DNA of 51,257 nucleotides from Pseudomonadales bacterium (lineage in GTDB: Bacteria; Pseudomonadota; Gammaproteobacteria; Pseudomonadales; Azotimanducaceae): contig JANQKS010000017.1 in NCBI GenBank assembly GCA_028281005.1, positions 1 through 51,257 on the forward strand. The letters run 5' to 3'. This document shows positions 29,608-47,711 of this stretch, piece by piece. Under the pieces are notes generated by a model that saw nothing but the letters and a program-made list of their open reading frames with translations, ran no database searches and had not been told where the DNA came from. A program made the translations under genes and the position numbers. The first letter of the stretch is position 1; the number at the start of each line of letters is the position of its first letter.

Positions 29608-30493
29608 ATTTTCTCTCATCAACACCGTTGTTGCGCAGTTAGGAGAGCAAGCCCAGGGGAGGTGGGTGCGACTCGGCCCCGGCGACGATGCCGCGGTGAT
29701 TGAACAATCACCGGACTGTGAAGCCGTTGCATCCATCGATACGCTTGTGGGAGGTGTGCATTTCCCTCTGGGCTCGACGCCGCTGCAGGTTGGTTATCGT
29801 GCGCTCATGGTGAGTCTCTCGGATCTAGCTGCGATGGGTGCAGAGCCACGTTATGTGCTGGTGGCTTTAACACTACCTCAAGCCGACGCGGCCTGGGTCA
29901 GCCATCTAGCCCAAGGTATGGCCGAAGCAGCGGTGGCTTGCGATGTGTACCTGTGCGGCGGGAATTTTGCCAAAGGACCGCTGAGTTTAACGGTCAGCGT
30001 ACACGGGGAGATCCCCATGGGGCAGGCTGTGACCCGCAGTGGTGCCCGAGTTGGAGACGGTGTTTTTGTCAGCGGTGATGTAGGTGGTGCCGGCGCTTGT
30101 GTACGGCAACAAGATTGGGATTTTTCCATACCGTTGAGCCCCGGGCAGGAGCGCTACTTGCGCCCGCGGGCCCGCTTTGATCTGTGCGCTCATTTAAGAG
30201 AACACGCCCATGCAGCCATCGATGTTTCGGATGGCTTGGTGGCGGACATGTCGCACATCTGCACGGCGTCGGATGTCAGCGCGCAGCTGGATCGCACCGC
30301 CATACCGTTGTCTCCTGGCGCGGTGCTGGAAGATGCTTTGTATGGGGGTGACGATTATCAGCTGCTGTGTACCGCAGCCACCGACAAACTTCCCGGTTTC
30401 ACCTGTATCGGTGAAATCACGGTAGGTTCTGGCGTTTGGTTGGATGGTGTGCAGCTCGAACCCCGCGGGTACAACCACTTTGGCGCTGCCTAA
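29600..30493 (+). CDS. thiL: Thiamine-monophosphate kinase ThiL
   Basis: Phosphorylates thiamine monophosphate to the active cofactor thiamine diphosphate. The 297-residue protein carries LGPGDDAAVIE, ASIDTLVGGVHFP, the Mg/ATP-binding DVSDGLVADMSHI and GGDDYQLL. The start is GTG at 29600 (VDEFSL), within the nusB end. The next gene pgpA starts at the thiL 3' end. Confidence 0.95.
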   Translation: MDEFSLINTVVAQLGEQAQGRWVRLGPGDDAAVIEQSPDCEAVASIDTLVGGVHFPLGSTPLQVGYRALMVSLSDLAAMGAEPRYVLVALTLPQADAAWVSHLAQGMAEAAVACDVYLCGGNFAKGPLSLTVSVHGEIPMGQAVTRSGARVGDGVFVSGDVGGAGACVRQQDWDFSIPLSPGQERYLRPRARFDLCAHLREHAHAAIDVSDGLVADMSHICTASDVSAQLDRTAIPLSPGAVLEDALYGGDDYQLLCTAATDKLPGFTCIGEITVGSGVWLDGVQLEPRGYNHFGAA

Positions 30494-41582: not shown

Positions 41583-42507
41583 AAACCGCCGTATTTCCTT
41601 GGCGCTCAGCAGTGGCGGTGCGCGCGGTCTGGTTCACATCGGCGCCATTCAGTGCTTGGAGGCGCAAGGGTACGAGATATGTTGTGTGTCCGGGTCTTCA
41701 ATGGGCGCCTTAGTGGGGGGCATCTACGCGCGCGGCGAACTTGATGCCTTTGCGCAATGGGTGCGCGCCTTAACCCGCAACGACGTAGTGCGTTTGCTCG
41801 ATATCGGCTGGGGTTTCGGTGGTGGGTTGTTTAAAGGCGAGCGTATTATCGAGGTGCTTAAAGAACTCATTGGGGACGCCGCCATCGAAGACCTTCCGAT
41901 CAACTTCACGGCGGTGGCGACGGACATCAACCGTAAACGTGAAGTGTGGATGGAACGCGGGCCATTGTTTGATGCCATACGCGCCTCGATTGCCATCCCG
42001 ATGGTATTTACACCCGTGCGCCGTGGCCGTCAGCTCTTGATCGACGGCGGCGTACTCAATCCCTTACCGATCGCGCCGACGCTTAAGGACGATACCGACT
42101 TGACGGTTGCAGTTGATGTCAACGGTTTGGACACACGGCCCTTGAACATACGTCTGCCGCTCGATGAGGCGTCCGCGGCACCAAGTGAGGAACAAAACCC
42201 CGCGAGTGAGGCGGAGCCCACGGCGCGCCAGGCGATCGCCGAGTTCATAGAGGGTTTGTGGCCAGGCAACAGCAGTGAACCGCTACCCGAGCAACAAGAT
42301 CGCAATATGTTCGACATCGCCATGGAAGCCATGGATTCTATGCAGGTCACCATCTCTCGATTAAAGTCTTCAGTGTATACACCGGATGTGCTGGTGCAGG
42401 TACCCCGTAATGTGGCGCACTTCTTCGAGTTTGAGCGTGCCGGTGAGCTAATTGATATGGGCTACGAACTGATGGAACAGGAATTGACCGCGCCCGAGCA
42501 ACCTTAA
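41575..42507 (+). CDS. Patatin-like phospholipase family protein (RssA-like)
   Basis: Serine acyl hydrolase of about 310 residues with a Ser-Asp dyad: glycine-rich oxyanion loop SSGGARGLVHIGA, nucleophile GSSMGALVGG and DGGVLNPLP with the catalytic Asp. The N-terminal 180 residues form the patatin domain; the C-terminal part (from about 200) is less conserved and ends in FELIDMGYE-like FERAGELIDMGYELM. ATG at 41575 overlaps the CoA transferase stop by eight bases. Cytoplasmic, with no signal peptide. Confidence 0.88.
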   Translation: MTENRRISLALSSGGARGLVHIGAIQCLEAQGYEICCVSGSSMGALVGGIYARGELDAFAQWVRALTRNDVVRLLDIGWGFGGGLFKGERIIEVLKELIGDAAIEDLPINFTAVATDINRKREVWMERGPLFDAIRASIAIPMVFTPVRRGRQLLIDGGVLNPLPIAPTLKDDTDLTVAVDVNGLDTRPLNIRLPLDEASAAPSEEQNPASEAEPTARQAIAEFIEGLWPGNSSEPLPEQQDRNMFDIAMEAMDSMQVTISRLKSSVYTPDVLVQVPRNVAHFFEFERAGELIDMGYELMEQELTAPEQP

Positions 42508-42521
42508 AACGGAACACAGAT

Positions 42522-43142
42522 ATGCACAACCGTCTCGAGATCGATGTCTTTACCGACTACGTCTGACCGTGGTGTTACCTCAGTACCGGGCGTATTGAAA
42601 AACTAAAAGCAGAACACGACGTGAAAATAAACTGGGTGCACTTTCCGTTACACCCGCAAACGCCTCCAGAAGGGCAGTCCATCGCTGAGCTATTTGCCGG
42701 ACGCGACGTTGACCTTGCGGCCATGTATACGCGTATGAAAGCGCTGATGGATGAAGAGGGTTTACCCTACGGGCAGCGCACCCATACCTACAACAGCCGC
42801 CTTGCCCAGGAACTGGGTAAATGGGCGGACACCCAAACCGGTGGTGAAGCGGCGCACGATGCGCTGTACAAAGCCTACTTTGTTGAGGGGCAAAACATCG
42901 GTGATATAGACGTGCTGTTAGAAATAGCTGACGCGGTCGGCTTGCCGGTGGAGGCGGCGGGTACGGTATTAAGGGAGCGTACGTTTAAAGCGGCCGTGGA
43001 CGAAGATTGGCAGAAGTCGCGCCAATACGGCATTACCGGCGTACCGACGTATGTGGCCGGTGGTTACGGGGTGACCGGTGCACAGCCTTACGCCACCTTG
43101 GTGAAGTTTGTGCAGCACGTAGCCAATGAGACGGCGTCGTGA
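42522..43142 (+). CDS. FrnE/DsbA-family oxidoreductase, probable selenoprotein (UGA at codon 15)
   Basis: Thioredoxin-fold protein of the FrnE/DsbA type (COG2761), 206 residues if UGA is recoded. Read through, the start is EIDVFTDYV-U-PWCYLSTGR, where the family has CPWC; the TGA (42564-42566) falls exactly on the first redox cysteine. The rest is intact: KINWVHFPLHPQTPPEG, the helical insert and the cis-Pro loop GITGVPTYVAGG. A hairpin just downstream fits a bacterial SECIS (see 42580-42598). The gene begins 14 bp after patatin, and its stop overlaps the next start (GTGA), so ribosomes reaching the true end would be expected. Alternatives are a nonsense mutation or sequence error, or initiation at GTG 42621, which would lack the redox motif. 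selA, selB, selC and selD are not in this window. Confidence 0.78.
42580..42598 (+). promoter_or_regulatory. Candidate bacterial SECIS hairpin
   Basis: Seven-base-pair stem TCAGTAC / GTATTGA (one G-U pair) with the five-base loop CGGGC. The loop begins 23 nt after the U of the UGA codon, and G stands at the second loop position. This agrees with the published general pattern for bacterial SECIS elements: short apical loop with G in the first two positions, 16-37 nt from the UGA. The fold was found by eye. Confidence 0.65.
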
Positions 43143-44224
43143 AACATCTGCCCTTGCCTAAGTTGCCGGATGGCCTCACCCCCGAGTGGCTGACGACTGC
43201 TTTGCAGAACTGCGGTGTGTTGCAAGGCAATGCCACGGTAACCGCGGTTCAATGCCAGCAAGTAGGTGAAGGGGTGGGGATGATGAGTGAACTTTCCCGC
43301 GTTGTTTTGCAATACGGCGGCGACCCTGGAGAGGCACCCACCAGTTTTGTGGCCAAATACCCGTCACAAAACCCCACCAACCGGGGAGTGGCGATGTCGT
43401 TCAATTTATATGAGCGGGAAGTACGTTACTTTGCTGAGCTCGAAGCCTTAACCACCGCGCAGTCGCCGCGCGCCTATATCGCCGAGATCCGGGACGACAA
43501 TTTTTTGCTGCTGTTGGAGGATCTGGGCGATTACCGCACGGGGGATCAGATTGCAGGGGCGGATCTGCATGACTCTAGCGCTGCAGTTGCCGAGTTGGCG
43601 AAATTACACGCGGCGTTTTGGAATCAAGTGGATGGCATTGATTGGATTCCGCACATCTACAAAAGTTATCACGCCGACAACATGTTGGCCGGCACCGCGG
43701 CTGGCTGGGCAAATATGGTGGTTGTGTTCGGGGAATTTTTACCGGCCGACATTGCCACGCTCCAGCCCCGGTTCAGTGCAGCGTTGCCGGGTCTACAACA
43801 AGCCATGGATGCTGCGCCGATCACATTGATACACGGCGACTACCGCATGGAAAATTTCCTGTTTGGCACCCGACCCGGGCACCACCCGTTAGCCATCATT
43901 GATTGGCAGGGGCCGTTGCTCGGCCGCGGTATGGTCGATGTTGCTCTGGTGTTGGGGCAAAGCACCCGGACAGACATCCGGCGCGAGCACGAACATAGCC
44001 TAGTCGAGCAATACGTGCGCGACTTGCAGCAGTTGGGCGTGGCCTATGCTTTTGAGCAGGCTTGGCAGGATTACTTAACGGCCCTGCTGTATAACTGGTG
44101 TTACGTAGCGGTGGTAGCCGGCACCCTAGATGCCCGCAACGAGCGCGCGTTTGCGTGGATGTCGCAAATGGTGGCGCGCCAAGTGGCGGCCACCCAAGAC
44201 CATAATCTGCTGGCTCGCCTCTAG
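43139..44224 (+). CDS. APH-like phosphotransferase family protein
   Basis: Kinase-fold protein of 361 residues from the aminoglycoside phosphotransferase/ecdysteroid-kinase-like group. N-lobe YEREVRYFAELEAL and LLLLEDLGDYRTGDQ; catalytic loop LIHGDYRMENFLFG; Mg-binding AIIDWQGPLLGRGMVDVA. Such genes often sit beside acyl-CoA dehydrogenases and CoA enzymes and may act on a lipid or terpenoid alcohol, but that is inferred. GTG start at 43139 overlaps the FrnE stop by four bases. An intact relative of the degraded kinase at 22754-23433. Confidence 0.88.
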   Translation: MKHLPLPKLPDGLTPEWLTTALQNCGVLQGNATVTAVQCQQVGEGVGMMSELSRVVLQYGGDPGEAPTSFVAKYPSQNPTNRGVAMSFNLYEREVRYFAELEALTTAQSPRAYIAEIRDDNFLLLLEDLGDYRTGDQIAGADLHDSSAAVAELAKLHAAFWNQVDGIDWIPHIYKSYHADNMLAGTAAGWANMVVVFGEFLPADIATLQPRFSAALPGLQQAMDAAPITLIHGDYRMENFLFGTRPGHHPLAIIDWQGPLLGRGMVDVALVLGQSTRTDIRREHEHSLVEQYVRDLQQLGVAYAFEQAWQDYLTALLYNWCYVAVVAGTLDARNERAFAWMSQMVARQVAATQDHNLLARL

Positions 44225-47267: not shown

Positions 47268-47711
47268 ATGAGAGCTTTTGTGCTTGTGCTGCTATGCGCG
47301 ATGATGGTAAGCGGCGCAAACAGTGCGGATAAGCCTACCCATCACGGCGCCAACGGTTTCGTTAACCCGTACATGGAAGAGGCCCACCCGGGTTTATGGA
47401 GTTTTATCCGCGCTCGTCTATTCAGTGGTGAATGGGCATCCTGGGTCATCGAGTGGTCTGATTTCACCACCTGGTTCGGAGGGGATACGGGCTATAACAC
47501 AGTGCAGTTTGCGCAGATCGGCGAGGCGTTTCCCAGTATTGATCTCGGCATTATCCCCATTGGTGCGCATTGGGAAGGAGTCGCACGCCCGCAGATGTCG
47601 CCGGCCTCAAACACCAACGGCGGTAAGCGCCTCCACCACGGCGTGAGCAGCGGAGCTGACCAACACGGCTTGGAACGCCCAAACATGAGCCACCAGCAGG
47701 TGCGCGACTAG
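47268..47711 (+). pseudogene. MBL-fold (NAPE-PLD-like) hydrolase remnant with internal deletion
   Basis: A signal peptide (MRAFVLVLLCAMMVSGANS) and the family N-terminus THHGANGFVNPYMEEAHPG are joined directly to a late segment, FGGDTGYNTVQFAQIGEAFPSIDLGIIPIGAHW, which in NAPE-PLD-like metallo-beta-lactamases comes about 150 residues later. The HxHxDH metal site between them is gone. After about residue 110 the frame is unrelated and runs into the 3' end of the M56 gene on the other strand. The deletion is in frame, so the ORF looks intact to a gene finder. Confidence 0.72.

Follow-up and report, generated by a model that had tools for sequence, protein, structure and literature searches.

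Known DsbA-like selenoproteins and the locus

DsbA-like proteins that contain selenocysteine (Sec) have been recorded in several surveys of bacterial sequences. The Sargasso Sea survey described a "DsbA-like protein" (nine sequences, COG2761) as a previously unrecognised selenoprotein family, predicted a selenocysteine insertion sequence (SECIS) for it, and named a G in the small apical loop as a feature of bacterial SECIS elements (PMC1088965). The frnE gene of Deinococcus radiodurans has been assigned to the same group, COG2761 (PMC1978522). Later counts include four DsbA-like selenoproteins in a 2006 survey (PMC1794560), 63 sequences of "DsbA 1" (pfam01323, motif UxxC) from Global Ocean Sampling (PMC2398784), and a DsbA-like protein in 41 organisms in a 2016 survey (PMC5029168). 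Reviews from 2022 and 2026 also list PF01323 proteins with UxxC (PMC9312934, PMC13188914), the second of them dividing DsbA-like proteins into form 1 (UxxC) and form 2 (DxxUP). One further gene of this kind lies in a stretch of 51,257 nucleotides (the window) from a Pseudomonadales bacterium of the family Azotimanducaceae (assembly GCA_028281005.1, contig JANQKS010000017.1). Its product is very probably an FrnE-type thiol-disulfide oxidoreductase of the cytoplasm with the DsbA fold, in which selenocysteine, inserted by recoding of the UGA at 42564, is the nucleophilic first residue of the active site (UPWC). Computed support comes from a conserved UGA, a conserved and covarying stem-loop, full Sec machinery in the genome, the FrnE fold and purifying selection.

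A conserved in-frame UGA at the first active-site residue

Translation of 42522-43142 meets a single internal stop, TGA 42564-42566 at codon 15 (context TDYV*PWCY), and the 206-residue frame terminates at TGA 43140-43142, which agrees with an earlier sequence-only reading of this DNA. That reading placed the TGA at the first Cys of CPWC, where homologues indeed have TGT or TGC, and considered the 190 codons downstream to be free of decay. The number is in fact 191, and the absence of decay holds: the ratio of nonsynonymous to synonymous change (dN/dS) for the stretch after the stem is 0.03-0.30 in 13 hand-picked pairs, all of TGA-containing homologues (TGA forms), indicating purifying selection downstream, with synonymous sites near saturation (pS 0.62-0.72) in four pairs, two of which include the window gene.

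Among 200 genomes of the family, 96 gave a homologue match (E 1e-20), and TGA, read in each sequence at the Sec column, was present in 52 gene copies from 51 genomes, including that of the window (G000). Over 150 loci, a total that includes re-fetched copies, the codon is TGA in 68, TGT in 43 and TGC in 39; the column thus holds Cys or TGA, as a selenoprotein would predict. Two further matches flagged as having one TGA (in G121 and G077) carry Cys at this column, their TGA sitting just before the start codon, and one locus (L141, genome G034) has TGC though it is nested among TGA forms. A contig scan produced 80 loci, four of them with TGA (L043, L045, L046, L084). L084 belongs to a metagenome-assembled genome (MAG) titled Deltaproteobacteria, or Myxococcota according to the tree labelling; L043 and L046 are identical to the G016 and G018 loci over the 90 nt compared and are therefore probably not independent. 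Within the genus of the window the TGA form was found in four of the 34 genomes drawn (G000, G103, G186, G187), so its presence is patchy. A quick tree of 130 rows, from which L066 and L111 were dropped because of unknown letters, requires five Sec/Cys changes, three of them forced by starred branches, with no direction claimed.

Two additional copies were seen. One genome (G020, contig C30) has a second TGA copy, L142, with 40% identity to the window protein and both TGA and stem intact. The window's own genome encodes a second FrnE-like gene (L150, C88:16335-16952; 31% identity) with CPWC and no in-frame stop.

The SECIS stem-loop

With the T of TGA numbered 1, columns 17-23 pair with 29-35 around a 5-nt loop, at a UGA-to-loop distance of 20 nt, and the second loop base is G (42588 in the window) in every one of the 51 distinct TGA sequences. 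All seven pairs are formed in 49 of these 51, compared with one of the 73 distinct Cys sequences; the full stem arises in 0.08% of synonymous-codon shuffles. Pairing is maintained through exchange of bases, pair 19-33 being A-U in 44 sequences, U-A in four, G-C in two and unpaired in one, and pair 21-31 being U-A in 49 and C-G in two. Double-sided changes amount to eight cells against a shuffled mean of 0.5, a value reached in none of 500 shuffles, and sliding the partner by 1-3 columns lowers the paired cells from 99.4% to 26-42%. RNAalifold, to which the stem was not supplied, recovers the identical stem, and the window sequence has it in both the minimum-energy and the centroid fold. The codons under the stem are more fixed than the protein demands. 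Of the 49 TGA forms with Leu at the first stem codon, 47 use CTC, and the stem is kept although one position may be Ser, Cys, Asn or Gly and others Gly-Arg or Val-Ser. A SECIS model built from the family and run on the window's own genome has one strong match, the 42580-42598 site (71.7 bits), the next reaching 18 bits (E 0.1).

A Cys homologue with TGT, L047 (around position 1003), is 64% identical and retains LNTGRIE along with five of the seven stem pairs, possibly the remnant of a SECIS from before a Sec-to-Cys change.

Selenocysteine machinery

The genome (5.1 Mb, 135 contigs, 98.67% complete) contains selA, selB, selC (tRNA-Sec) and selD, the set proposed as a check by the sequence-only reading. 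They lie within about 13.4 kb of one contig (C47) and score 537 bits for selA, 451 for selB, 71.7 for tRNA-Sec and 277 for selD; ARAGORN gives the tRNA the anticodon TCA, and selD has no in-frame stop. selB exceeds its cut-off in 158 of the 200 family genomes, and selA occurs in 12 of 274 genomes of a class-wide sample, own genome included (E 1e-60). These profile matches mark the Azotimanducaceae as a Sec-rich lineage. Since selB is nearly universal there, co-occurrence within the family is uninformative; the class-wide test is without power because selA is present in only those 12 genomes and the gene in the own genome only (E 1e-40). In 27 named genomes, drawn from 27 of the 80 contig-scan loci, the four with the Sec form comprise two with selA over cut-off, one with a fragment just under it and one with none, and selA is present in 10 of the 23 with the Cys form.

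No formate dehydrogenase alpha subunit over the TIGR01553 cut-off was found in the genome, TIGR01553 being the only family searched (best match 113.5 bits, no in-frame stop). Within the window, 29645-30322 (+) gives a weak match to the selD profile (63.7 bits, under the cut-off) and is presumably a related 5-aminoimidazole ribonucleotide (AIR) synthase-type enzyme.

Alternative explanations and opposing evidence

A pseudogene or nonsense mutation would make the UGA a real stop, leaving a redox-dead fragment of 173 residues or no product. Table 11 does treat the codon as a stop and leaves a shorter open reading frame (ORF) in the same frame, GTG 42621 to 43142, from which the active site is missing, the truncated product that the sequence-only reading expected of standard annotation. 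Six of the 51 TGA genomes yielded neither selA nor tRNA-Sec, which also fits such decay. Against this stand the TGA shared by 51 of 200 family genomes, the purifying selection beyond it, a SECIS-like stem almost exclusive to TGA forms and the complete Sec machinery of the own genome, and this explanation is very improbable. Reading of UGA as some other amino acid, through a general change of code or leaky suppression, would account for a frame that is open once UGA is read. However, the 68 TGA loci end in TAG (25), TGA (23) or TAA (19), with one cut off, so UGA still stops translation; tRNA-Sec with anticodon TCA, selA and selB are present, and every other relative read has Cys at this residue, which makes this even less probable than decay. 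A sequencing or assembly error at a Cys codon, although a lone TGA/TGC difference is a common type of error, is the least credible of the three, because the same TGA recurs in 50 other genomes (52 copies in 51 family genomes in all, plus the MAG loci L043, L045, L046 and L084).

Several results weigh against selenocysteine insertion itself. The overall stability of the stem region is ordinary (z +0.56 with dinucleotide shuffles, mean z -0.31 with synonymous shuffles), and of the five covariation measures, two are weak: "further pair types" is matched or exceeded by 208 of 500 shuffles, and "pairs with a change on both sides" is reached in 15 of 500. The stem was chosen by inspecting these same sequences, and kinship inflates covariation counts. 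Rfam has no match on 42300-43300 at E up to 1. selB over cut-off is listed for 41 of the 51 TGA genomes and does not track the gene within the family, being likewise listed for 117 of the 149 genomes that lack the gene. Neither selA nor tRNA-Sec was found in G187, G069, G079, G087, G117 and G143. Sec insertion, SelB binding, the chemistry, the cytoplasmic location and the direction of the reaction are all inferred from the computed results.

As folding energy alone does not discriminate, the case for a SECIS is made by the particular stem, its covariation and its absence from Cys forms. The ten TGA genomes lacking selB over cut-off are drafts (71-96% complete), and the Sec machinery may be absent from the assemblies rather than from the genomes. 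Beyond the six named above, G016 and G074 have selA fragments and tRNA-Sec, G018 a selA fragment and G041 tRNA-Sec. Sub-threshold matches to the selB profile in G143, G018, G079, G087 and G074 (E 5e-60 to 1e-53) could be selB fragments or other GTPases. Taken with the homologues carrying UGA and the machinery of the own genome, the SECIS upholds the earlier proposal of a probable selenoprotein. Two of the refuting conditions named with that proposal, a genome lacking the sel genes and relatives with a decayed downstream region and no UGA, do not hold.

Genomic setting and feature coordinates

The immediate neighbours are as close as the sequence-only reading had described: an upstream patatin-like ORF ends at 42507, 14 nt before ATG 42522, and downstream a kinase-like ORF begins at GTG 43139 and shares the last 4 nt of the Sec gene, including its stop. 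When eight neighbour proteins were compared with the 150 loci (E 1e-8), the matches outside L013 (the window itself) were confined to CaiB-like proteins at five loci, with 23-31% identity. When the 718 neighbour ORFs of 132 representative loci were clustered, none of the 30 largest clusters was common to most TGA forms, and the largest cluster confined to TGA forms covered 13 of 53; many flanks span just 1.5-3 kb, so farther neighbours could escape. Because this context is not conserved, no function was inferred from the patatin, kinase and enoyl-CoA hydratase setting, and an operon or a function derived from neighbours was rejected. A scan of the window for in-frame TGA yielded 129 that are followed by 60 or more open codons, the top 60 of which were checked for a Cys-like motif. 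Elsewhere in the window, 47268-47711 holds an ORF of 147 residues whose product by eye resembles a secreted protein of the metallo-beta-lactamase fold that has lost a large internal part and then runs into unrelated sequence, possibly a decayed gene.

Table 1. Coordinates of the selenoprotein gene and its elements in the window
Feature	Position	Strand	Evidence
Sec-containing FrnE/DsbA-like gene (206 residues, U at codon 15)	42522..43142	+	PF01323 130.3 bits; homologues
UGA codon, putatively read as selenocysteine, first residue of UPWC	42564..42566	+	translation, relatives, SECIS
Cys18 codon, second (resolving) residue of UPWC	42573..42575	+	translation; invariant in alignment A2
SECIS element, arms 42580-42586 and 42592-42598, loop 42587-42591	42580..42598	+	stem analysis
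Truncated ORF without redox motif, expected from a standard caller	42621..43142	+	table-11 ORF
GVPT, residues 173-176	43038..43049	+	translation, alignment A2

Protein family and proposed mechanism

The protein probably belongs to the FrnE subfamily of DsbA (COG2761, cd03024), to which it is assigned by its PF01323 match (curated cut-off 25.6 bits), its closest fold among solved structures, FrnE, and its active site; no NCBIfam model exceeded its cut-off. Positions 15-18, the CP(W/F)C site, are invariant in the 44 sequences of alignment A2 when U is counted as C. Pro175 of GVPT is likewise invariant there and occupies what we take to be the cis-Pro position of DsbA folds. A C-terminal CX4C was found in none of 53 TGA forms and none of 79 Cys forms examined. 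This pair is present in many FrnE proteins, though not all, and its absence from FrnE of S. roseofulvus as well (PMC8945050) means that it is not required for membership.

In the proposed mechanism, SelB bound to the stem-loop would deliver Sec-tRNA-Sec to the ribosome at UGA 42564, and translation would terminate at the second UGA, 43140. The selenolate would then attack substrate disulfides, and Cys18 would resolve the mixed selenosulfide. FrnE reduces insulin and 5,5'-dithiobis(2-nitrobenzoic acid) (DTNB) and has disulfide isomerase activity, and its mutants are sensitive to diamide and cadmium (PMC8945050). By analogy, the window protein is probably a cytoplasmic reductase or isomerase of disulfides, and these directions are more likely than oxidation. 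It is a tentative and rather unlikely proposition that the family harbours a distinct Sec-dependent cytosolic FrnE branch without a CX4C relay, spread across one lineage with near-universal Sec machinery and including at least one genome without TIGR01553 over cut-off, in which Sec may replace the second redox pair and allow the enzyme to be recycled directly by glutathione or thioredoxin.

Comparison with known systems

The sequence-only reading had raised a possible new case, which the literature does not bear out: COG2761 DsbA-like selenoproteins have been published since 2005 (PMC1088965, PMC1978522), so the gene is not a new type of selenoprotein. The first of these papers was the only one found on selenoprotein and COG2761 and was not retrieved by a search on selenoprotein and FrnE; the name FrnE is absent from the main text of PMC13188914, PMC2398784, PMC9312934, PMC5029168 and PMC1794560. 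Existing knowledge of selenoproteins is unchanged by this gene. Standard annotation would nevertheless give a truncated, redox-dead protein here, and probably likewise in the other 50 genomes with TGA. A clean, covarying SECIS in 51 distinct TGA sequences, together with matched Cys homologues, makes the family suited to testing what Sec contributes to an FrnE enzyme.

Among characterised relatives, FrnE of D. radiodurans (5cnw, 5coh and others) has Cys where the window protein has Sec, and carries a C-terminal CX4C, a proposed recycling pair, which the window protein lacks. Cys homologues share about 42-65% identity in Rhodospirillaceae-like and SAR116 Alphaproteobacteria, some Gammaproteobacteria and Thermodesulfobacteriota, and 34-36% in Chloroflexota; they have CPWC instead of UPWC, and 72 of the 73 distinct sequences lack the full stem. 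2-Hydroxychromene-2-carboxylate (HCCA) isomerase and kappa-class glutathione S-transferase (GST) are only 15-18% identical to the window protein, and set against what we take to be their active site, UPWC/CPWC indicates disulfide chemistry instead. Published DsbA-like selenoproteins share with the window protein PF01323, UxxC, a SECIS with an apical-loop G and Cys homologues, a likeness drawn from domain, motif and COG descriptions. The definition of "DsbA-like protein form 1" (PF01323, UxxC) fits, and DYVUP also fits the form 2 motif DxxUP, in a comparison at motif level (PMC13188914). The Sargasso COG2761 set and "DsbA 1" come from marine metagenomes, whereas this gene lies in a near-complete genome with Sec machinery, as a well-supported further example of the already known DsbA-like selenoproteins.
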